Source: Hesseltinella vesiculosa
Lineage: Eukaryota; Mucoromycota; Mucoromycetes; Mucorales; Cunninghamellaceae
DNA length: 64,000 nucleotides
Assembly: GCA_002104935.1 (NCBI GenBank)
Contig: MCGT01000001.1
Location: 124,001 to 188,000 of the forward strand
Direction: 5' to 3'
The stretch's first letter is position 1, and every line of letters begins with the position of its first letter. The translations under genes were made by a program, and so were the position numbers. Below are positions 15,836 to 62,134 of the stretch, one piece after another. Below the pieces are notes generated by a model, which was not told the DNA's origin, ran no database searches, and saw only the letters and a program-made list of their open reading frames with translations.

Positions 15836-17996
15836 TTAAAAATCATCATCACCACCAAAGAAACCATTGCGGGCCAAGGTACTTTCCAAGTGGACAGGGG
15901 CTTCTTTTGCCATTTCTTCTTCACGACGCCGTTCCATTTTTTTTGCTGTTACGGCACCGAGACCTTTGAGATAATCGACTAGGCGACGATGATTGCCAGC
16001 ACGAGCGAGGTCCAAGGGTGTGCCAACTCGTCGAGGCACATAGGTGTTGCAGTCACATCCGCAGCGTTCCACCAGCAATGTCACGACTTCAAGTCGGCCA
16101 TGGCGAGCAGCCCAATGCAACGGTATTTCTCCTCGGTAATCAGGTTGATCGACAGGAATTTCGCAAGACCGAGCCAGGAAGGACACCAGGTCGGTGTGGC
16201 CAGAAGCGCAAGCATAATGTAAGACGGTTGCACCTGCAAAAAAAAAAAAAAAAAAAAATCATCAACAAAGGCAGTCAGCGGATAGGGCTTGTTTTTACCG
16301 AGGCTGTCGACTTCCAGATTCAATTGGTCTTGTGTGACACCAACAATGTATTCCACTACGGCTGCATGGCAATGTTCAGCAGCGACATGCAGGGCAGTCT
16401 TGTTTTTGGCACCTCCACCTCGTGCTGAGACAAGATCTCCACCGGCTTGGACCAATTTCTGTAGACCGGGTAACCAGCCCACACTGGCTGCAAGGTAGCA
16501 AGGTGTCATCTAGAACAAAGAGGTTAGCCAGCCTTCTCTCTGGGTTTCAACCTTGCTTCTCGTGTCACCTTGTCATCCTCGGTTTGGCTTAGAGTAAAAG
16601 CATTGGGGTTGGCTCCTTGCTGCAAAAGTAGATCCAAGCTGCCAGGGGCTTTGGTCACAACCAAGGCATGGATCATACCATAACCATATTTGACAGAATT
16701 GATCGAGGATGATTGTTTGGCTGTGTTGGGCGACCCGCCTCGACGGAGGAAATTACTACAAGAGTAAAATCGGCTGAGTCTCTCCTTTTTTTTTTTTTTT
16801 TTTCCTGAGCACTCCTTTTTGGCACCTCCTTCGTCTTACCTGATCATTTTTTCCACAGTGACATCACTTCCTTTTGATTTGGAAATGGTTTCCCACAAGG
16901 CATCTGATCCACCAAAAATCAGAGGATCGACACGACGTTGTTGAATTAAAGAAGCCCCAGTGTAGCCATTGGTGGCTGTACTGGAGCGGACAGGCGTCAT
17001 TGGGACAGAGTTGACGTTGATGTTTGGACTGTAGTCCTTGGCATTGGTGGAGGCAGACGATGAGGGCGCAAGAGAGGGTGCTGAGATTGTGCTGGAGGCG
17101 CCAAAGGTGCTGACGACCGAAGGGTTATGCTGCATCAGCTGCCAGGACTGTTTCTTTTTGGGCGATTTCTCCTTGCTACTGGTGGAGCTGGTGTCTGAGG
17201 AAGAATGGGAGCTGTGGACCGAGGTAGAGGTGGAGTTCTGGCGCAGGCGGGGAAAAGGCGGGGTGGCATCCGCAGAGGAAATCGAAGGTTGTTTTTCCTG
17301 CAGTTGCGTGGAGTTCAGATTCCAGTAGGGCACGCCTGGGCTGGAGTTGTTGGTGGAGGTGGAGGAGGAGCGGGAGGGCATGGAGACTTTGCGAGGGCAG
17401 CTGCCTTCGCTGTGATGCTCATGAAAGGAAGGGGCTTCATTTGGGATGGTGGATGGCTGTGGGCTGGTAGGGGTCAATGGATAGCTTTGAAAATGTTTGG
17501 TTGAGCTATTGGCAGGACCATGTTGGGCATGGATGTCAGCCGAGGTGCTGGATTCAATGGACAGGCTGCGCGGTCGTGTCGAAGCAGAGGCGTGCTGAGG
17601 AGGCAGAGGTGGGGTGGTGGTTGACTGATGCTGTTGGACAGCAGCATTGACATATTGCTTGTTGACTTCCATAGCCTTTTCGTATTTCTTTCGAAAGAAT
17701 TGCATTTCCCGCACAGCCTTATCATAACGACGCTGATAGTCAGCAGCCAGCGACTTGTATTCTGCATTTTCTTGTTCCATGGCTTCGGATCGGGCTTGTA
17801 GCATGCTGATAAGGCGGTCATGATTAGCAAAGATGCGTTTCATTTCGATCTTCATCGCTTGCTTGAGTTCCTCCCGTTCCACAGCGTCAGCCATCTCCAC
17901 TAAGTTTTCTTTGGGTGTCCTTGGCTGTTCGTCCTTGGTGATTCCTGTTTCCTCCATGCTGTTGTAGGAGATAGAAGGTGACAACGCAGGTGACAT
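15836..17996 (-). CDS. Ankyrin-repeat protein with N-terminal coiled coil
   Basis: Start placed at 17996 (MSPALSPSISYNSMEE); the open frame extends upstream but only through a pyrimidine-rich leader. Residues of about 30-130 form a charged predicted coiled coil (REELKQAMKIEMKRIF...KAVREMQFFRKKYEKAM). A Ser/Thr/Pro-rich linker of about 200 residues follows. The C-terminal half, spread over several exons, contains ankyrin repeats (MTPCYLAASVGWLPGLQKL; KTALHVAAEHCHAAVVEYI; ATVLHYACASGHTDLVSFL; EIPLHWAARHGRLEVVTLL; GTPLDLARAGNHRRLVDYL) and ends with an acidic tail GGDDDF. Likely a scaffold; partner unknown. The poly-T tract in the intron at 16239-16258 is typical for this window. Divergent from the Zn2Cys6 gene, about 970 bp apart. 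Confidence 0.82.
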
Positions 17997-51315: not shown

Positions 51316-52710
51316 ATGCGTTTACCCACCCTTGCTACTTTGGGCTGTCTTTTGCTCACGACATCCAAATTTGTTACTGCCGACATGATGCTTGAAGCTC
51401 GTGCTGTGGACAGTGCTAACGCCTATTCCGATTATTACAACCAAGTCTTTGGCCAAGAAGACAGCGATAGTGACAACTTCGAATTGGTGGAAGAACCCGC
51501 TGTCAGTGCCAACGCTAATACTTTGGCCAAACGTGCCACCTGCTCTGAATACCACACCGGTAAGCGCGGCCCTAAAATCACGACTGCCATCCCCCCCCCA
51601 AAAAAAAAAAAAAAAAGAAATCTCGGCCCTCTCATTATTAACTCATTTTTTTAAAGTTTCTGGCAGCGACACCTGTATTGGTCTTACCAAGAAGTATGGT
51701 ATCCACCTTGATGACTTTTACAACTGGAACCCTCAAGTCAACCACAAATGCACCAATTTGAACGACGGCAAAAAGTACTGCGTCGGTGTTAGCGCTTCTT
51801 CCTCCGGCTCTGGCTCCTCCACCTCTGGCTGCTCCAAGACTCACGTCGGTAATTGCCCACTTTCTCATTTTTCTGAATTATTTTGCTAAGCAATATATTA
51901 CCATCGCCAGTGTCTGGTTCTGATACCTGCGAAAGCTTGGCTAAGGAATTCAACATCAGCCTCAATACCTTCTACTCCTTGAACCCCAAGGTGCACCGAG
52001 GTTCCTGCGATAACTTGGACAACGGCAAATCTTACTGTGTCCAAGGTGGCTCCAGCCACAAGGGTACTCAACTTGGCCAATCCTCCGGTGGTGGCAGCAA
52101 GAAGAAGCATCACGGCTCCAAGAAGCAACCCTCATCTGGTGGCTCTGGCAAGAAGGAACAACGCAAGCGCATCCAATCCAACACTGCCTTTACCTACTAT
52201 TGGATTGCTGACCCCTCCTCCTACTCCAACTCTGGCAAGATGGTTACCGTCAAGACCTGCGGTGGTCAAAACATCGGCAAGGTCCACGAAGACTATGCTG
52301 ATGCTTTGGTCATGGAAGGCACTGGCGTCCTTGGGTCCAAGATTGTCAACCTCGGCGGCTGCTCCTGCAACAACTACAAGTGTTTCGAATTGGTTGACAA
52401 GAGCGACGATCCCTTTGGTTTGACCGCCTACGGCTCTCCTCTCCGTCCCTACATCACCATTGCTGCCAACGATATCTCCAAGGGTACCAAGATCTTTGTG
52501 CCTCAATTGGTCGGCTGGAAGCTACCCAACTCCAACAAGCGACACAACGGCTGTCTCTTGGTTGAAGATCAATCCTGGAGCTTTGGTGGCCACCACATCG
52601 ATTTCTATGTCTACCAACAATCCCACTACAAGACCTTGGACAAATCTCACCGTATTACCAAGGTTGATATCTATGAAGGCGGCAGCTGTCAATTGCTCAA
52701 CTATCTTTAA
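51316..52710 (+). CDS. Secreted protein with two LysM domains and a C-terminal 3D (double-psi barrel-like) domain
   Basis: Three exons: 51316-51559, 51657-51848, 51911-52710. Signal peptide at residues 1-22 (MRLPTLATLGCLLLTTSKFV). A Kex2-type LAKR site near residue 74 suggests a propeptide. Two LysM units start with the same VSGSDTC: DTCIGLTKKYGIHLDDFYNWNP and DTCESLAKEFNISLNTFYSLNP, each with a closing Cys; LysM binds chitin/N-acetylglucosamine polymers. A Ser/Gly/Lys linker leads to the C-terminal domain (FTYYWIADPSSYS, then DPFGLTAYGSPLRPYITIAA, SKGTKIFVPQLVG, VEDQSWSFGGHHIDFYV) with Gly-Thr and paired Asp features of the 3D/RlpA-like fold. Likely acts on or in the cell wall. Each LysM is set off by an intron, suggesting exon duplication. 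Confidence 0.85.
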
Positions 52711-52857
52711 ATAAACACCTCCCCCGAGACACTGTCTCCCTTACTTCAGTGGGATTTGGTCTTTTCCAATTGGAGTGCAAAAAAAAAAAAAAACTTAATT
52801 TAATGTGGTCTAATGGGCTGCAACGTTGGAAATTTAAAAAAAAAAAAAAAGGCGTGG

Positions 52858-54797
52858 CTAAAGTACAATGGTTTCACCAAAGGCGGTGGTAATGAAATTG
52901 GAAGGTGAGGGATTGGAGGAGTTGTTGCTGAGGGTTGAAGAAGACGTGGTTGTGCTGTCATCGGGCGAGGATGATTGTGGATCCGCAGATGACACATGCT
53001 TGAGGCTAGGATGACGCTGTTCCCATAATCGAGCCAACGACCTCGGTGCTTCCATGTAATGCTCTTCAGACATCATAAACGTGCCCCAATGGACCCCAAC
53101 AGACAGTCTTGGCATTTTCAAATCCTCATGCACTTGGATTGCTTCTTCAGGGCTGATATGGACACATTGCATCAACGATTTTGGTTTGAAACTACCAATG
53201 GGTATAGCTGCCAGGGTAAAAGGTGCATACAGGTCGCCAATGGCTTGATACAGATCTTGTGAATACCCTGTGTCACCACTGAAGAGAAAAGAAATTAATA
53301 AACCAAACCCTTTTTAATGCACGATGAAGTCAACTTTTTTTAAGCTTACCAAAAGAAGACGCTGTCATGCTGACTCTTGATCACGTAGCTGCACCACAAT
53401 GTCCCATTCTTTTCAAATGGCGTTCTAGACCCGCTCCAATGCTAACCACAAAAAAAACCACGGTGAGTTTTCTTGGCCAATTCTTCTTCTCTTTTTTTTT
53501 TTTTTCTTTTACCATGGCTGGCACGCAGGCAATCATTATATCTGGTCTTGTGCTATGACGAATTTCTTGCCACCAATCCATTTCAACAAACTACACCAAT
53601 GAAGCTATGAGCTTGGCTATTTATATCATGATACCTTGTCATTCTCCTTACATTTTCAACTTTGCGTTTCAAAAACCAATCTCGTAACCCAAGCGGGATG
53701 TACCATGTCACCGAGTTTCCTAATTCATACACAACATTTTCGTCTATATAGAAAAGAATGAGCTCTAAACTGGTTGCCATCCTGGATCGACATACCTAGA
53801 TGGTCAAAATGGTCATGAGAGATCAAGACAATATCCAACTTGTCTTTGAATTCTTTGAGAGGACTTGGCACAGGGCGCAGTCGTTTTGGCCCCACATAAT
53901 CATTTACTGACCGCTTTGCAAAAGCCGGATCTAGGCATGAGACGTTAGAAAAGATAAAACATGGTTACACACCCATCAGCACCCATTGACATATAAAAAA
54001 AGCATGTTCCTTCCGGCTTCACAATCACATCCGCACTAACCTGTTAAAATAGCCAATCCATGCAAACTGATCAGGCACGTTGATTGTCTACGGTGGCGAA
54101 TGCCAGTAAAAAAATATAATTATAAAAAAAAGTGAGCAAACGAGTTAAGCCAGTGAGCCCTAATCGAATTTGTTTGTTTGGATGCAAAAGATAACCTTAC
54201 CCGAACCATGTAAACGTAACACCGCTTGCCTTGTCGGGTGCGTCCGTTGGCAAAGCTTGTTTGATCTGTTGCGCAAAAACTGTCTCAAAATCGGGCAATT
54301 TCACAGGCAGCGACAGCGCCAGTTCCTGGGACATGTACAAAAGCCGTTAACTATTACACCTTTCATTTCTCTCTAGATCGATTACCTCATGCGATCGAGG
54401 TAAGCCATTACCCTTCCAACGGCGTAACCAAAACCATGTTGTCTCTATCAATGACGGATTTTGCCATTCATCAAACGGATTCACAAAGTAGCGCTCCACC
54501 TGGAAGAAATGCGACAAAAATAATGGTTCTTCTTGTTATCATTATGTATCAAGGATCTCTTCCCATCCGCACTCTTACCTTTAGACTGGCGTAGCGATCT
54601 TCAGGGCGCTTTAATACACGTCTTTTCTTGATTTCTCGTTTTCTGACAGCTTCAATCAGTTCCGTGGTGTGAGTCCATTGCAAATAATGATAAAGAATTG
54701 CAGAAGCAGCTACAGTAATTGCAAGCGTAGGGATCGTTAAAGGGTGATCAAAAGGAATAGGGAAGCTAGAAAGCGAGGGCCTCTTATTGTGCTGCAT
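52858..54797 (-). CDS. NAPE-PLD-like metallo-beta-lactamase-fold hydrolase
   Basis: Resembles N-acyl-phosphatidylethanolamine-hydrolysing phospholipase D and yeast Fmp30 (mitochondrial membrane). Start 54797 (MQHNKRPSLSSFP) gives an N-terminal membrane segment IPTLAITVAASAILYHYL. Following exons read FVNPFDEWQNPS, TFTWFG, QSTCLISLHGLAILTDPAFA, and the zinc-binding motif LISHDHFDHL (about 53800, H-x-H-x-D-H). Later exons give HWSGSRTPF, FSGDTGYSQDLYQAIGDLY and PRLSVGVHWGTF, positions where family metal ligands Asp and His occur. A Ser/Thr/Asn-rich tail ends the protein. About eight exons. Activity on NAPE is inferred from family only. Confidence 0.85.
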
Positions 54798-55492
54798 GGG
54801 TTTGAGAGGCAATTGGAGGAATGAGCAAGAGACAAAGTGGAAAAAAAAAATCAAGGGGGTTTTATTTTTTTTATTTTTGACCCATCCCGTGATCCCCGCC
54901 TGCCGAAGCCAGCCTGACGAGTGGGTATGGAAAATTTGAGAAGAAAAAAACAGCGCAACCAATCAAATAGTCAGATGCATATGTGCTACTAAGCGCACTA
55001 ACATGATCCGCTGCAGAAAAGAATTTGTCGCATCTTTCTGCAAAGCATGTTATTTTACCACCTTGGATTTATAGACCAAACATGGTAAGGCATAGGGAGA
55101 GGCATGCGTGAAATAGACAGAATGGTATGGATAGTCGCAATTTCTTCAATCTGGAGCATTTTTGTTTAACTGAGGATGACTCTGGGGCCTGAATTTTTTT
55201 TTTTCGTGGTTTGGTTTGCCAGGCAGTGTTAAGTTTTTATTTAAGAAGCACAGTAAAATTAGCAATAGAGATAGGCAAATAGTGTTACCTTTATCATTGA
55301 TGGTACGCTACTTCATTTTATATTTCAAAAAGAAAGGTACGTAGTAAAAAAAAGGGCTAAGGATGTGATTGGCGATCATTCTCGCTGGCATTGGCAAAGG
55401 TTTGATCATCCGCAACACGCGATTCTTTTTTTTGTTTGTTTATCTAGGCTCTTCTATCTTTTTTATTTTTGCTCATTTTCTATCTATCCCAG
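54798..55492. other. Divergent intergenic region NAPE-PLD-like / Fanzor
   Basis: 695 bp with no gene seen. It must hold the promoters of the two divergent genes. A pyrimidine-rich leader (55430-55490) precedes the Fanzor start. No transposon ends could be established. Confidence 0.4.
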
Positions 55493-58400
55493 ATGCAATC
55501 GCTTCTTCAAGCTGTCTACGAAACTCTGTGCCACATCCCTGAAGAAGATTTCGGCCGGGCGTTGCCTGATCTGTTGGATCAAGCTTGGATGACCACCGAA
55601 CAAATCTACACTGTTTGGTCACAAGCAAAAGTCTATCGCAAACGTAAGTCATCCATCACTTCAATCATGTCTTTTTCTTTACCCATCTTCGTAGGACGGG
55701 AAACTGGGCCCACGCCACAACGACGTGCCCAACAACAGGAACAAAACGATCGCGCCGAGGGGAGACGGCAGCGCCAAGAAGATGAGCGAAATCCTGATGC
55801 TGTGGGACCGTGTGCCACATGCGGCCAAATGGGACACTGTTCGTCTGCCAGCCGCCTCTGTCCTTACCATCGCATGAACAAGAAGGATTACATCAACGAA
55901 ATGATGCCAGGTGGTGAGCGCTACACGATAAAAAAAAGCTTTGAAGATGCCGTCCGGCAGCCTTTCAAGCTCGCTTTGAAGCGCAACATAGAATCGACCA
56001 GCGCCTGCAACAAGAACATCCTTTTCCGCCTCCAATTGTTTCTCAACCATTTTGCTCTCACCCACCCGTCTGACTTTAAAAGCATCATGATCAGCCAGAA
56101 CGGTCTCCTGTCCATCTCGCAACTCGTCTATCCCCGCAACCCGCGTCGACCAGGGATGACCAACGCTCATGTCCTACGAAACCTTCCTCCCACCTTCCTG
56201 CCTCACTGGAACCAGTTTGTCCGTGACCACCCGAACATCACCTACAGCCCCAACGACCACCAAGGCATGGGTCCGCTCGACAATGCAGCCCTTCTCATTC
56301 CTGCTGATCACCGCAGCCTTTACTTCCACCACCCGCATAAATTCTATGCAAATACTTTTGGGCCATGCTTGTCAACGCTTGCCACAGCTTACTCCAATTG
56401 TTTGGTGATCGACTTTGAGAAAAAGGTCAAGAAGTTTATTCGATTCTCCTTTGCCATCACGGATCTCAGCGTAGGTTTTATAAAAAAAAAAAAAGAACCA
56501 AAAAAGGGATATGTTCTGACTTTTTTTTTGTCTCTTTCAGATCCCTCACATTGACCAGCAGGTGGATGATATCTACACGAGCTTTGCAGAGAGACCTTCC
56601 CATCCTCAATCAGGGGTAACACCTGGATCGGCCACAAGCAATGTCCCTGGTGTGTCTACCGAAGAAGCGGCCATTGCCAGTGTGAAGGCGAAAACACTGG
56701 CCTTGAAACCCCACTACGTTGGCAAATTGACGTCGACAACCCTGTCCCGAAACCCCAGCAGTGCCTTGCTTGTCTACATCAACATCAACAAGCACTACGA
56801 GCAATACAAGTGCCAGCCCAATGCCAACCCTAAAAAATGCCCGAAGCTTACCATCCTTCCTGAGCCTCACTTTGGACGCCGATTCATCCCCATTTTACCC
56901 GACACGATCAAATATCTAGCCGAATGCGATGCTCCTGGTAACGCTGTGGCTACCATTGGCAATGAAACAAACAACGACAACACTGGTGAACGCGACGCCG
57001 CTTTCATCCGTGCCTTGCCCATGTTTTTCAAGGTGTTCCACATGGAAAAGTTCGACTTTGGCAGGCCTGGGTACGGGAGGTAAGTTTCGCAGACACCAAA
57101 AAAAAAAAAAAAGAACAACCTCCAACTTTTTTCTTCTTCTTCTCACCTAGTGCCCAGGACATGCTTGAGGGTATACTATACAACCGTCCACTGTTTGCTT
57201 GCCACATTTGGTGTGATGGCGTTTCGTGCTGCTTTGAATTTATTCGTTTGCCAACCACGCATCGCCCAACGATGAAGCTGCCCAGCCTGGACCACTGGGA
57301 TACCGAACTGGTAGAACGCTTCGATATGGTTGCCGTCGATCCAGGCCGCCGTGCCATCGTCACCGGAAGCTATGGCACACCTTATCCACTTTCTATACTC
57401 CCTGAAACCCGGGATGACGAAGACTCTGCAGGGGAAGGTGAACCCGATAACGATAATGACGAAGAACAAATGGCTATCGACACCCCATGTCCTATTCGTA
57501 CTGCTCAGCCTGCACATCAACATCAGGACTTTGACAACGCCACTGGCAGCACTGATATGGAACAAGGAAATATCTCTATGCCTATGATTGACGATGCCGA
57601 TCCTACCACCCCGATCCCCCAGTCTCACCATCTGCCTTACCGAGTCATCAAAGTTTCTGCAAAGGAATACCGCTCGCAATGTGGAACGCAGCGACGAATC
57701 CAACAATTGGAACGACGCAAGGTTTCCACAACATACTCCTTCCGAGGTCAGCAAATACCGTTCAATCAGATGGAAGCCGCCATCCCTTCCCACCAAACCA
57801 CCAGCCCCACTGAATATGCCACGCGAATCCAGCACCTGTTTGATCGTCTCCCGCTCTTTTTCGACTTTTGTGGCCTCCAGCACTCCATCGACCGCTTCAA
57901 TGCTTACAGAGGGCGTCAGCGGGGCGTGGCATACGTTGCCAGTGTTCTTGCTGGCCTGTCCAAGAAGTATGTCAAGTCCCAGCGCAATGTGCGCGGCCAC
58001 CGTAAACGTACCCACCGCAATCGGCGCAAGCGTCAGAAGAAAGCTCGGAAGAAAAGGGCCATCAGGATCAGCAAGGCCAAGGAGGCGATGCGAAAACACC
58101 TTGCTGCAATGGACATGGCAATAACGAAGATCGAAGATTTGCTGAAATGCAGTGCTGGTTTGATATTGCATGGGACGATGGATCTATGGGAAGCAACATT
58201 ACATACCATGCGCACCCAACGCGACCTGGACCGTGACCACCGCATTGATCTGATCAATGAAATGGAAGTAAAGAGGCAAGTCGCCGTGGTATTCAGGAGG
58301 TCCAGGTGGGCTTATTTTTCCATTGTAGACCTGCGCCGCAAATGAAGCCATGCACACGTCTTCGTCACGGTGTGACAAAGTTTCCCAGCGAAAGAGTTCC

Positions 58401-58838
58401 ATTAATACTCTTTGGTGATGGCCTCAAGGGCCGGAAGGTCGCCGCCCCGCTCAAAAAGCAGCTTCCTGGCTCGTCTTCCCTGGTGTTTGACCAATTGGAA
58501 AACCGACAACGTCAGGGCAAGCTTGCTGTTATCTCACTGAATGAGTTCAAAACAAGCAAGGTGGGTGAAAAAAAAAGGCATGGCAACCGCAACGAAGTGG
58601 TTCATTCTCTTTCTTTATGCAGCTCTGCTCTGTCTGCCATGGCCCAACCAAAAACCCAGTCATGAATGGGGGCAAGATTTATGGACTTCTGCGCTGCAGC
58701 TCCTGTGCGGCCATCTTTGACCGGGATGTCATGGCAGCTTGCAACATGATCTCCATTGGTCAACACTTTTTCCAACACCAGCAACGCCCCCTGGCCTTTT
58801 GCCCGCGCCGACGCCCCCAAACCTCTCCTATCGTTTAG
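55493..58838 (+). CDS. Fanzor, eukaryotic TnpB-like RNA-guided DNA nuclease
   Basis: About 1000 residues. Exons 55493-55643, 55695-56470, 56541-57079, 57151-58267, then 58348 (or 58381)-58560 and 58623-58838; all but one junction keep frame unambiguously. RuvC-I is DMVAVDPGRRAIVTG (Asp codon at 57338). The family marker VSAKEYRSQCG follows, then a Lys/Arg-rich helix (RGHRKRTHRNRRKRQKK), likely for guide RNA binding. RuvC-II region is PLILFGDGLKG. LNEFKTSK (Glu codon at 58543) carries the rearranged Fanzor glutamate just before the zinc ribbon CSVC...CSSC, followed by RuvC-III IFDRDVMAACNM (Asp codon at 58725 or 58719). The N-terminal half has a Cys/His knuckle (CATCGQMGHC). Known Fanzors cut DNA guided by an omega RNA from the gene's 3' flank. 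Whether this copy is active is inferred only from intact motifs. Confidence 0.87.
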
Positions 58839-59024
58839 TTTTCATTTTTATTCACCAAAGCAACCCCGCAAAAAGGGTTACCGTCTGCTCTGGCAAGAAC
58901 GCGTTTAATGCTTTTATCCGGTAATTGGTGTTTTTAGCCAACACTTAACACAAGTTCTGATTGGTAACGGAGTTTTCTTTTTTTTCATAGTGGAGTGGGT
59001 ATGTCGTGATGTGAATTCCAATAA
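58839..59024 (+). other. Fanzor 3' flank, candidate omega-RNA region
   Basis: 186 bp between the Fanzor stop and the stop of the convergent helicase gene. Contains hairpin AACCC/GGGTT with an 8-nt loop (58862-58879) and a GTGTT/AACAC pair (near 58928-58945). Fanzor/TnpB guide RNAs usually start in or after the 3' end of the gene, so this is where one would lie. No direct proof. Confidence 0.35.
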
Positions 59025-60971
59025 CTATGGCAAGAACCTTTTCAGCTGTGGTGGAAGAGGTGTGACTTGGTGCATAGCTTGATTCGATAGCATTTTCATG
59101 AACGGTGGCAAAAGGGCCTGGTGATCCTACCAATGGCAAAAAAAAAAAAAATACAAATGTCAAATAGAGTCGGTGGGCATCTCGTTATTTCAGACTTACT
59201 TGGTTGACAAAGGTGATGGCGCAGCCAAGGTTGGAGTTCGAGGAGGAGGAGCCAGGGCCTGTAGGAAGCACGGCACGGCCAACTCGGTGGATATAGTCGT
59301 CCAGGGTAGAGGCCATGTCGTAGTTGATGACGAGTCGCACAAGCGGAAGATCCATACCACGTGCCAAAATATCCGTTGACACAACGACATCCCATGATGG
59401 TGACACGTTGGGCCGGGTCAAGTTGGCAACCACAGCTTCCCTCTCCTCTGGGTCTTTGTCCGCATGCATGGCAACCACGCTGAGTTGCTGACCAAAACGT
59501 TTCGTCAATGACTGGGCTAGGAACTCTGCCCCTAGTCGGCTTTCCACAAAAATCAAGATCGGCGGCATAAAATACTTTGGGTTGTTGAGAATGGAGTAAA
59601 GCCTCTTCGGTTTGCTTTTGTTCTCTATCCACAGGACTGTCTGCCGGACGTTGGGGGTAGGAAGTGTCGGAAGCAAAGAAGGTGCCGATGACGACGTATT
59701 AGGAGGAGAAGCCGAGTGGGAGTCAGAGCTACCGCTGGCGGTCAATTGGATGGTGACGACATCGGTTAGGTAACGGGTAATGCGGCGGATCTGGTCGCTT
59801 GTGCCGCCAGCGGTGGCGGAATAAAGCATAAGCTGGAGTGTGTGTTTAGCAGAGGTGGTGATAGTGCGAAGAAGTTTGTTGATTTCCTTGCCAAATCCCA
59901 GGCCAAGCATGGCATCTGCTTCGTCGAGCACAACCATGGACAATCGCCATAGACGCAGTGTTTGGGGGTGGTAGGTCGCTATTTGGCTCAAGCGACCGGG
60001 CGTTGCGATGATGAGTTGCACGCCTTTGTGAAGTCGATAGACTTGCGAGCTCAAGGGCTGACCACCGACAAGGAGAGAAGTGCGCATATTGGTGAGTTGT
60101 CGTACCATCGTCTTGGCGATGGTTTCCACTTGGATAGCGAGGTCGCGTGTGGGGACCACAATCAATGCATACGGGCCATAGCGGCGTTTGTCGTGGTTCA
60201 TGCGGTTCAAGGAGAGGCAGTGTGTAATGATAGGAATCAGATAGCTCCCTGTCTTTCCAGAGTGTGTGGGAGCAATGACATGCACGTCATTTCCTGCCAG
60301 ACCCACTGGAATGGCCATACGCTGGATGCTGGTAGGAATATGCCAGTCAAGATCTTGAGTCACATTGTGATGAAGCTGGTCGCCAAGCACATGCTTTAGC
60401 TGATCCATGCTGGCGATCGGTCGTGGCAGCTGCTTTCCATGGACAACCAAATCGTGCGCTTTGAGGATTAGGCGACGTTGTTGCTTGGTCATTTGCTGGA
60501 GATCTTTGCTTTCTCTGTACGCAGTCCACTTCACGTGTACCTTTTCTGCGATCGTATGCTGTACATGACCTTGTTCAATCGCATTGATTTTGACATTAGC
60601 ATTTGTGGACTTTAGTACTACGCGATCGACATTGTTGCTGGTATCTATTTGTTTGCATTCCAAACTTGAAGTAATATAAAAAGACAGGTAAAACATCTTT
60701 GAATAGGCTTTTTTTGATTGTTTGTTTGTTACCTGCAAACATCATGATCGGTATCATCGTTGATATATTCACCGTAACGCCCACACACACAGCAAGTTTC
60801 TTCATTGGATTGAGCAGATCGTTGCTGAGAGCATAGCTTCTTGATGGGTGCAAGCGATGGCTGTTGGATAGGTGGAGATGCGACTGTGTTTTGCTTTTTT
60901 TGGGGAGCCTCGAGAGGCTGATCGGTCACATCATGGCATTGTTTTCGTTTCACAGCTCGAGGGGTAATCAT
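59025..60971 (-). CDS. DEAD-box RNA helicase with N-terminal HIT zinc finger (DDX59-like)
   Basis: Exon 1 (60971 to about 60735) ends in the HIT finger CCVCGRYGEYINDDTDHDVC, joined in phase to SLECKQ in exon 2, an arrangement specific to DDX59/ZNHIT5-type helicases. Helicase motifs: Q-motif region PTSIQRMAIP, motif I APTHSGKT, Ia VPTRDLAIQ, GG, TPGRL, II VLDEADAML, III YSATAG, IV ILIFVESR, V STDILARGMDLP, VI HRVGRA. A last exon continues DHQALLPPFMKML and stops at 59025. Motif I has His where AxTGSGKT expects Gly, and VI reads IHRVGRA. About 570 residues. Function in animals touches snRNA biology/ciliary signalling; in fungi unknown. Convergent with the Fanzor gene. Confidence 0.87.
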
Positions 60972-62134
60972 ACATGTAAACTACACACGCCAACAGGGTA
61001 GCTAACTACAAAGGGTTCGATCCACAGTAAAAAAAACGAAAAAGTGAAAGAAAGTCGCCCAAAATGTTCTCACAATGCGGCGTTTTTACCTTTTTTTTTT
61101 TTTTTTTTTTCACAGCTCTGTGTTTCTTTCTCTCGCTCTTGTTGTTTTTGATAGCACTTTTCAGATTCCTTTGCTATCGGCAATGGTTATACAGGCTCAT
61201 CACGAAGCGTTGGTGCATAGACCCTCTTTCGTTTTGCCAGCTTCCTAGTAATTTCTCGCATTAAGCTCCAATCCACGCTTGAAACACGAAAATTAGAAAA
61301 AGATGTATTGTATAAAACCGCCCTTCTGACCAAGGGTGACAACCTGGCAAAGACGGCCACCTTTTAGCTTGGGATTCTGAGTTTCAAAATGCAATCAACG
61401 CAAAATTGGCTGGGTGGCCATGGTTAATCAATGTGATTTTTTCAGTATCATTATCATTCATACACTACTTTATCCATGAAAAAATTCAGCACAATCCAAT
61501 CGTTCAATAGCGCTGTGCAGCAAGACATTATTTTTTTCGTTTTTCAAAAAAAAATGAAATATCTCCTTCGGAGCTGGAAGCGGTCGGATCACCGGTTCAG
61601 TTCCGACACCATCACTTTTCTCTTGCCAATTTTTTTTTTTCGAAAATGGCGTGCAATTTTTCTTGCTATAAACATGCTGACACTTTTTTTTTTCGTTTTG
61701 CTTTGTCTGGAACATACAGTAAACCGTAAACCAAATGGCAGCTGTTGTGTGACATCGATACAAGCCCTAAACTTGGCTGTAGGTTGTATGAGATGTTTCA
61801 AACTAAGAAATCTACTAGTAAAACACAACTGGGTGACGTTTCTGCGCCGTTCTCCTTGGAAATAAATTGCTGCAGTGTGGAAACGAACTAACCCCAAATC
61901 TGGCTGCACCACTGGAAAGACAGAAAAAAAAACGGGATTGTTGCACAGGAAAGCAACAAATACAGGAATGACATCAACGCAGAAAAATTAAAAGAAAGGT
62001 TACTGTATTTGTGAGGAAGAGACAAGTATAAACGGCCTCGGAAGTTTTATTATGCTAGCTTCATTCTTTCAAACTTTGTTTGCGGGGAAACGTCTGTTTT
62101 CGCCTTCTTTCTTTTTCTTTTTCCTTACATCAGG
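60972..62134. other. Intergenic region DDX59-like / GH5 gene
   Basis: 1.16 kb. An inverted R1 repeat copy occupies about 61300-61610. An open frame of 130 codons (61476-61865) overlaps it and is hydrophobic without family features; not called. GTATAAAC at about 62027 lies 105 bp upstream of the GH5 start and may be its TATA box. Confidence 0.5.
61300..61610 (-). repeat. Dispersed repeat family R1, copy 6 (inverted)
   Basis: On the minus strand, in order: GGTGTCGGAACTGAACC, CATTTTTTTTTGAAAAACG, CTGCACAGCGCTATTGAACG followed by ATTGGAT, CCACCCAGCCAATTTTGCG, GATTGCATTTTGAAACTCAG, AAGCTAAAA, GGCCGTCTTTGCCAGG. Same landmark order as the plus-strand copies, more diverged. Confidence 0.6.

Follow-up and report, generated by a model that had tools for sequence, protein, structure and literature searches.

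Does a gene for a large Fanzor-like nuclease in the fungus Hesseltinella vesiculosa belong to its host or to a mobile element, and where is the guide RNA of the nuclease encoded? The gene is located in a stretch of 64,000 nucleotides (nt) from contig MCGT01000001.1 (positions 124,001 to 188,000 of the forward strand), which is called the window here and to which all coordinates refer. The most probable answer, with a probability of about 0.88, is that the locus is a mobile element encoding a single Fanzor1-type RNA-guided DNA nuclease, with an omega RNA right after the stop codon of the gene. The gene, its catalytic residues, the borders of the element, its copy number, and a conserved RNA core are read from the sequence. 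By analogy to published Fanzors, the tail RNA would bind the protein, and the 3′ end of the RNA would carry host DNA from just right of the element as the guide. The complex would cut a matching site that does not contain the element, and repair would copy the element back; moves to new sites would need a transposase supplied in trans.

The case for mobility is carried by copies of the locus in the same genome. The element in the window and its ends are organized as follows:

54919 to 54929, no strand: left copy of the 11-base pair (bp) direct repeat (GAGTGGGTATG) flanking the element, from flank comparison
54930 to 58992, plus strand: Fanzor element of about 4.06 kb, borders from 23 copies
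54941 to 54965, plus strand: left subterminal inverted repeat, 25 nt, which pairs with 58958 to 58982 with 76% complementarity
58981 to 58992, plus strand: right terminal inverted repeat, TTTTTCATAGTG, from the ends of 23 copies; its YAG is the would-be 3′ splice site
58993 to 59003, no strand: right copy of the 11-bp direct repeat, starting with GA, from flank comparison; the predicted guide source is here and beyond

A search of the fungus's own genome (27.05 Mb in 85 contigs) with window positions 57158 to 58303, which are mostly exon 4, gave at least 93 exon-level matches, grouped into at least 76 loci. At least 23 loci, including the window copy, are at least 80% identical to the query; these are the 23 near-full copies that form the window family. 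The copies match the window from a copy-dependent position between 54926 and 54962 up to 58993 or 58994. In the comparison of the 20 copies with long flanks to window positions 52000 to 61500, no further match was found beyond the element at E ≤ 1e-10. Degraded pieces of the window family also exist, for example L037, in which left and right parts are joined. Outside the window family, the genome has at least 53 more Fanzor-like loci; they fall into several diverged families, and some are close to contig ends. Family 2 has 51% identity in part of exon 4 and at least five copies, four of which were read, and family 3, also read in four copies, has 39% identity.

Among the copies, the element has a fixed right end and a ragged left one. 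On the right, 20 of the 23 copies read CATAGTG (L020, L027, and L028 differ), and the next two bases are GA in 22 of the 23, a dinucleotide with a frequency of 0.065 in the flanks. Left ends were counted in the 17 copies that fit the terminal-segment pattern, and the other six, with left ends further changed, were omitted. The full left box CACTATGG is present in eight of these 17 readable copies; in the window copy the terminus is eroded, so that GGGTATGG replaces CACTATGG and the last bases are shared with the direct repeat. Directly before the 8-nt left box, 11 of the 17 copies read YGANN, and the frequency of YGA in the flanks is 0.03. The target-adjacent motif is probably YGA, because YGANN precedes the left terminus and GA starts the right flank. 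Family 2 has the right end CTAGTG followed by CA in four of four copies and the left end CACTACGG whole in two of four, and would use a motif ending in CA. The right end of family 3 is ...GGAAAAACAGTAT, and the sequence read stops short of its left end. The 23 natural copies, 12 of them with open frames and each with its own flank, could serve as a direct readout of a Fanzor target motif.

The Fanzor1 gene occupies positions 55493 to 58838 of the plus strand, from the ATG at 55493 to the stop codon that ends at 58838, and its six exons encode 1012 amino acids. The exon borders were fixed by comparison of the 23 copies:

55493 to 55643, plus strand: exon 1
55695 to 56470, plus strand: exon 2
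56541 to 57079, plus strand: exon 3
57151 to 58275, plus strand: exon 4, carrying the RuvC-I aspartate D552 at 57338 to 57340
58276 to 58328, plus strand: intron 4, of the GC-AG type (GCAAGT...TAG), with the donor GCAAGT in 23 of 23 copies
58329 to 58560, plus strand: exon 5, carrying the relocated glutamate E936 at 58543 to 58545
58623 to 58838, plus strand: exon 6, with the zinc ribbon and the RuvC-III aspartate D976 at 58725 to 58727

With a GT donor only, the frame-keeping options for intron 4 are introns of 23 or 29 nt; they were dropped in favor of the GC-AG intron because it is present in all 23 copies. Intron 3 (57080 to 57150) is also of the GC-AG type, with the donor GCAAGT in 10 of 23 copies. 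The exon borders of the window transfer to each of the 23 aligned copies, with single splice sites altered in some, for example donor 2 of L011, donor 1 of L030, acceptor 5 of L031, and donor 1 of L024. Among the 12 copies with open frames, the lengths of exons differ by multiples of three only, and those of introns vary freely. Outside the gene, the element comprises 563 bp on the 5′ side and 154 bp on the 3′ side.

The gene encodes an apparently intact nuclease of the Fanzor1 type. The zinc ribbon is recognized as Pfam domain PF07282 (TNB) with E = 6.5e-9 and 36.3 bits, above the cut-off of 26.3, and TNB is found in all four rows of an alignment of three Fanzor families. Residues D552, E936, and D976 are invariant in these four rows, as is the complete DPG signature D552-P553-G554 that contains the RuvC-I aspartate. 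The relocated E936 stands directly before the zinc ribbon, and the third catalytic residue, D976, follows the ribbon. The DPG signature and the relocated glutamate are given as marks of Fanzors in PMC10711439. The best of four PDB matches at E ≤ 1 is the TnpB-like L79 (9b0l, E = 0.013), in which E936 aligns with the same glutamate, in NEYLTTK. These results bear out the preliminary description, which had assigned the motifs to a Fanzor encoded by one spliced plus-strand gene of about 1000 residues.

The protein is longer than the 600–700 amino acids said to be typical of Fanzor1 (PMC11423790) and than the approximately 800 given for large Fanzor1 proteins (PMC10711439). By eye, the protein has a CCHC-like knuckle close to its N-terminus and, after RuvC-I, an acidic low-complexity stretch. 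The Pfam zinc knuckle PF15288 has its best match, with E = 0.0012, in one of the four alignment rows, which is not that of the window. A structure model of exon 4 alone has a predicted local distance difference test score (pLDDT) of 45.8 and is uninformative. A search of viral contigs for relatives gave 346 pattern matches, none of which was confirmed.

The reading frame is open in 12 of the 23 copies. The ratio of nonsynonymous to synonymous substitution rates (dN/dS) among these 12 copies has a median of 0.26 and a range of 0.15–0.46, calculated from the 64 pairs, out of 66, whose dS exceeds 0.02; dS is 0.015 in the closest pair. Some of the open-frame copies carry altered splice donors (donor 2 of L011 and donor 1 of L024). 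The open frame and the purifying selection among the copies fit recent activity under selection for the protein, although they are not proof of it, and they support the earlier suggestion that the gene is functional or recently was. Copies L023, L024, and L026 are mosaics: relative to window positions 58329 to 58992, their exons 5 and 6 differ by 16–17% and their RNA tails by 0.6–1.3%. L025 and L032 carry the other type of tail. The mosaic copies suggest conversion or recombination between copies.

Downstream of the gene, the copies share a block that is the best candidate for the scaffold core of the omega RNA, on account of its position and conservation:

58857 to 58920, plus strand: candidate omega-RNA scaffold core, 64 nt, from conservation and covariation across families

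The core starts 18 nt after the stop codon and consists of a closing helix (AAAGC/GCTTT), a hairpin (AACCC/GGGTT), and a second hairpin. It is common to family 2 and the degraded relatives and, in changed letters, also to family 3. Positions 58861 to 58992 differ by 3–4% between copies of the window family, versus 9–14% in introns 2–5, and the 5′ non-coding part of the element is as conserved as this tail.

Covariation was scored on alignments of eight rows, hand-picked from a larger set of tails (31 extracted). The covariation count without family 3 is at the level of shuffles (286 of 500 and 146 of 500 shuffles); when family 3 is added, the observed score is reached by 2 of 500 shuffles, in a control in which relatedness of the rows can inflate the signal. 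A covariance model from that alignment finds the core, with E = 2.7e-4, in L053, which belongs to a family outside the model. The L053 locus is 35% identical in part of exon 4, and its core lies, as judged by eye, about 30 nt after the stop codon. With L053 included (alignment A4, which is A3 minus L029 plus L053), none of 500 shuffles reaches the covariation score, and three of the five pairs of the first hairpin change on both sides. The closing helix has no pair changed on both sides and adds little to the covariation. When four cores were folded alone, three of them, but not L037, took up the closing helix and the two hairpins. In L052, hairpins are seen by folding, and the covariance model, run with its filters off, finds no core there. 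Rfam gave one match in positions 54900 to 59100, with E = 0.36, below its gathering score. A second match of the covariance model in the window (16589 to 16653, minus strand, E = 2.7) was taken as chance.

Several observations weigh against reading the locus as a mobile Fanzor1 element with an adjoining omega RNA. The gene is broken in 11 of the 23 copies, and L011, a copy with an open frame, has an aspartate at the position of E936. The profile of the four alignment rows matches the Fanzor1 of Guillardia theta (9cer) as the best of six PDB entries at E ≤ 10, which is suggestive but not proof, since the match is weak (E = 0.1) and consists of two colinear stretches with i-E of 1 and 1300, the second not significant alone. 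A homologue search of a protein collection with residues 480–1012 produced 5861 candidates, none at E ≤ 0.001, and a further search produced 7754 candidates, none at E ≤ 0.1. The tail of the window folds no better than shuffles (z 0.79), and the four cores folded alone are not clearly better than shuffles (z −0.13 to −1.39); the case for the RNA therefore depends on compensatory changes. The target motif was read off the flanks of insertions rather than from cleavage, and YGANN is missing from 6 of the 17 readable left ends.

How the element moves is a separate issue. It is possible, though short of probable, that movement is one-sided or proceeds by break repair (Helitron2-like or nuclease-assisted) and is not ordinary cut-and-paste, which would explain the fixed right and ragged left ends, that is, CATAGTG on the right of 20 of 23 copies versus the full CACTATGG on the left of 8 of 17. 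Direct repeats of 10–12 nt, which point in the same direction, flank four of the 23 copies: the window copy (11 nt), L027 (10 nt), L020 (12 nt), and L017 (12 nt, of which eight touch the junction as judged by eye). All four have eroded left ends. Shuffled flank pairings give a mean of 0.35 copies with repeats of this length and a maximum of three in 2000 trials. The remaining copies show no clear duplication, though both of their flanks often contain GA. Left-truncated Fanzor-bearing Helitron2 copies with variable duplications, and 11–12-bp duplications with fuzzy left ends in MCi-2 of Mucor, are described in PMC3627910. One-sided movement is opposed by the inverted repeats at both ends of the element, by exact 4-bp repeats at the intact ends of L019 (GATT), L021 (GAAT), and L022 (GAAG), and by the genome having a single Helitron_like_N fragment, at C9. 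That the gene is domesticated by the host, or is a dead relic, would agree with the 11 broken copies but is very improbable. The preliminary description saw no transposon ends and suggested domestication or a decayed transposon; neither is supported, and domestication is rejected because of the copy number: there are 23 near-full copies with common inverted-repeat ends, the window copy with its 11-bp flanking repeat among them, 12 open frames, and low dN/dS.

EnSpm/CACTA transposons have the ends CACTA...TAGTG, produce a 3-bp target duplication, and encode their own transposase. The consensus ends of the Fanzor element family fit CACTA...TAGTG, with the left box complete in 8 of the 17 copies readable there, but the exact repeats are 4 bp long in three copies and 10–12 bp in four of 23, instead of 3 bp. 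The left flanks likewise read YGANN in 11 of 17 copies and not the TTTT next to which Helitron2 inserts. Of the Rep/helicase that autonomous Helitron2 partners carry, the genome has the one Helitron_like_N fragment. The genome contains seven matches to Transposase_21 (EnSpm/CACTA), none within the 23 Fanzor copies. They are located at C85:533881, C42:1886, C39:9070, C46:131037, C65:786, C5:656828, and C34:1239439, with open frames of 124–561 amino acids, several beside contig ends. These seven matches are possible movers, with no link to the Fanzor ends. No transposase-bearing partner with the same ends was found among 28 left-end and 38 right-end matches, most of which were judged by position. 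Some elements of the Fanzor2/IS607 kind carry a serine recombinase beside the nuclease. The H. vesiculosa family offers a way to study the role that RNA-guided nucleases play for transposons in eukaryotes.

The stretch between the RNA core and the right end of the element has the outline of an intron:

58921 to 58990, plus strand: candidate tail intron of 70 nt, GTAATT...CATAG, with a putative role in splicing; GT after the core, AG at the T-rich end

In the window family, almost the whole right inverted repeat falls within the candidate intron, and the T-rich right end closes with AG in all copies but one (22 of 23). A GT...AG stretch follows the tail in five of five families, which are all those whose tails were read, and is 69–70 nt long in the window family, 74 in family 2, 109 in family 3, 144 in L053, and 169 in L052, where donor and acceptor were picked by eye after a tail that the core model did not recognize. 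The donors were ranked among the GT sites of the window by a matrix trained on the coding-intron donors of the same gene. The donor of family 3 and L053, AAA/GTAAGT, ranks at 0.0003, those of L052 and the window copy at 2%, and that of family 2 at 0.125. The window family has GTAATT or GTAACT as its donor in 21 of 23 copies, with a score lower than that of any coding donor of the gene. This donor looks weakened from a better one, because degraded relatives have better donors (GTAAGTG in L037 and L039, GTAAGCG in L041, and GTAAATG in L038).

The omega RNA is nevertheless probably unspliced: as with other Fanzor1s, a single transcript with a scaffold of approximately 137 nt would extend from the core through the right end of the element and on into flanking DNA. 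Neither the GT that follows the core nor the T-rich right end would then be a splice site; both would reflect RNA structure or the transposon end. For a Fanzor1 of an ascovirus, the guide-RNA scaffold is predicted to include the inverted repeat and the target duplication, and the RNA extended about 15 nt past the duplication (PMC10711439); the omega RNA of GtFz1 is 150 nt long (PMC11423790). The low score of the window-family donor, the loss of the AG in the open-frame copy L027, and the lower variability among copies of 58926 to 58992 (0.033) than of coding introns 2–5 (0.087–0.136) are consistent with an unspliced RNA. Less easily reconciled with it are the donor of family 3 and L053, among the best 0.03% of the GT sites of the window, and the succession of a structured tail and GT...AG in all five families read.

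That the Fanzor elements of H. vesiculosa make a spliced guide RNA, with a spliceosomal intron between the covarying scaffold core and the guide, is a more doubtful proposition. The 64-nt core would be one exon and the right end of the element the 3′ splice site, and once 58921 to 58990 is removed, the scaffold would be followed immediately by TG, GA, and the flank-derived guide. The GT...AG stretches of the five families, the AG at 22 of 23 right ends, the highly ranked AAA/GTAAGT of family 3 and L053, and the better donors of degraded relatives argue for splicing, as does the size of the core, which is near that of the 75-nt omega RNA of PpFz1 (PMC11423790). The weak donors of the window family and family 2 and the L052 core that escapes the covariance model argue against it, and an intron in the 3′ untranslated region could serve the mRNA only. 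If the guide RNA were spliced, nearly all of the transposon end needed by the transposase would be removed from it, and the scaffold would be freed of that constraint. The right terminus would be the transposon end, the 3′ splice site, and the start of the guide exon at once. Such splicing would be a eukaryotic answer to the conflict of using one stretch of DNA as both transposon end and guide-RNA scaffold, and would change the prediction of guide RNAs for intron-bearing Fanzors. A literature search of titles and openings of abstracts, mostly of non-subscription papers, did not turn up any mention of splicing of a Fanzor guide RNA, and the word "intron" is absent from the main texts of PMC10432273 and PMC11423790. 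A further conserved sequence, TGCGACAT, lies in T-rich surroundings downstream of the candidate acceptor in three diverged families (L043–L046, L053, and L055; by eye) and may be another conserved portion of the RNA.

IStrons are bacterial TnpB elements with a group I intron, whose self-splicing competes with formation of the guide RNA. They link splicing to a TnpB-type guide RNA, as the H. vesiculosa element may do, but in H. vesiculosa spliceosomal splicing would create the guide RNA. The element belongs to a known kind, the multi-copy Fanzor1 elements of fungi (PMC10432273, PMC3627910), of which Mucor circinelloides has 10 families (PMC3627910), and is set apart from them by its size, exon structure, ends, and a tail with an intron-like stretch. 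Spu-1, the element of SpuFz1 from Spizellomyces punctatus, is also multi-copy, with one Fanzor gene, inverted-repeat ends, and a conserved tail beyond the stop codon, and its sequenced RNA of 88–90 nt includes a 14–15-nt flank-derived guide (PMC10432273). However, Spu-1 is about 2.1 kb long with a single open reading frame, in contrast to about 4.06 kb and six exons encoding 1012 amino acids here; its ends differ, and the sections consulted describe no tail intron. PpFz1 of Parasitella parasitica is likewise a fungal Fanzor1 enlarged by an insertion in RuvC, with a 75-nt omega RNA (PMC11423790). Its insertion is an FRI domain of about 100 amino acids that binds cyclophilin, whereas an acidic low-complexity stretch, noted by eye, follows RuvC-I here, and its motif is ATN, compared with the predicted YGA. 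Mucor MCi-2 and Chlamydomonas CRe-1, CRe-2, and CRe-3 share the fixed right end, ragged left end, and variable direct repeats, but have different ends and target motifs; the CRe elements share ends with Helitrons, and MCi-2 is without recognizable inverted repeats (PMC3627910). The SfAV Fanzor1 is similarly the sole protein of a non-autonomous inverted-repeat element, with a predicted three-stem guide RNA (PMC10711439). The predicted scaffold there retains the inverted repeat and the duplication, whereas here they may be spliced out.

Further sequence features were observed in the genome and in the window. L054:77-426 is a 350-bp mini-element with the ends CACTTTGG...GCAAAGTG, related to those of the Fanzor element; the RNA core model gives no match in it. 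In L046 of family 3, positions 112-579 and 830-1352 form a direct duplication of about 70% identity before the main Fanzor match, and each copy encodes a zinc-knuckle-like motif. The 16-mer CACTAAGGAAATTTTG has 12 occurrences among the matches listed, of which no fewer than nine lie less than 5 kb from a contig end (the sites include C4:932, C8:282, C23:249, and C12:1511584), and is probably a subtelomeric repeat. The neighbors of the element in the window are both on the minus strand: a gene of the metallo-beta-lactamase superfamily (pieces of PF12706) at 52858 to 54962 and a DEAD-box helicase gene (PF00270, PF00271) at 59185 to 60741.

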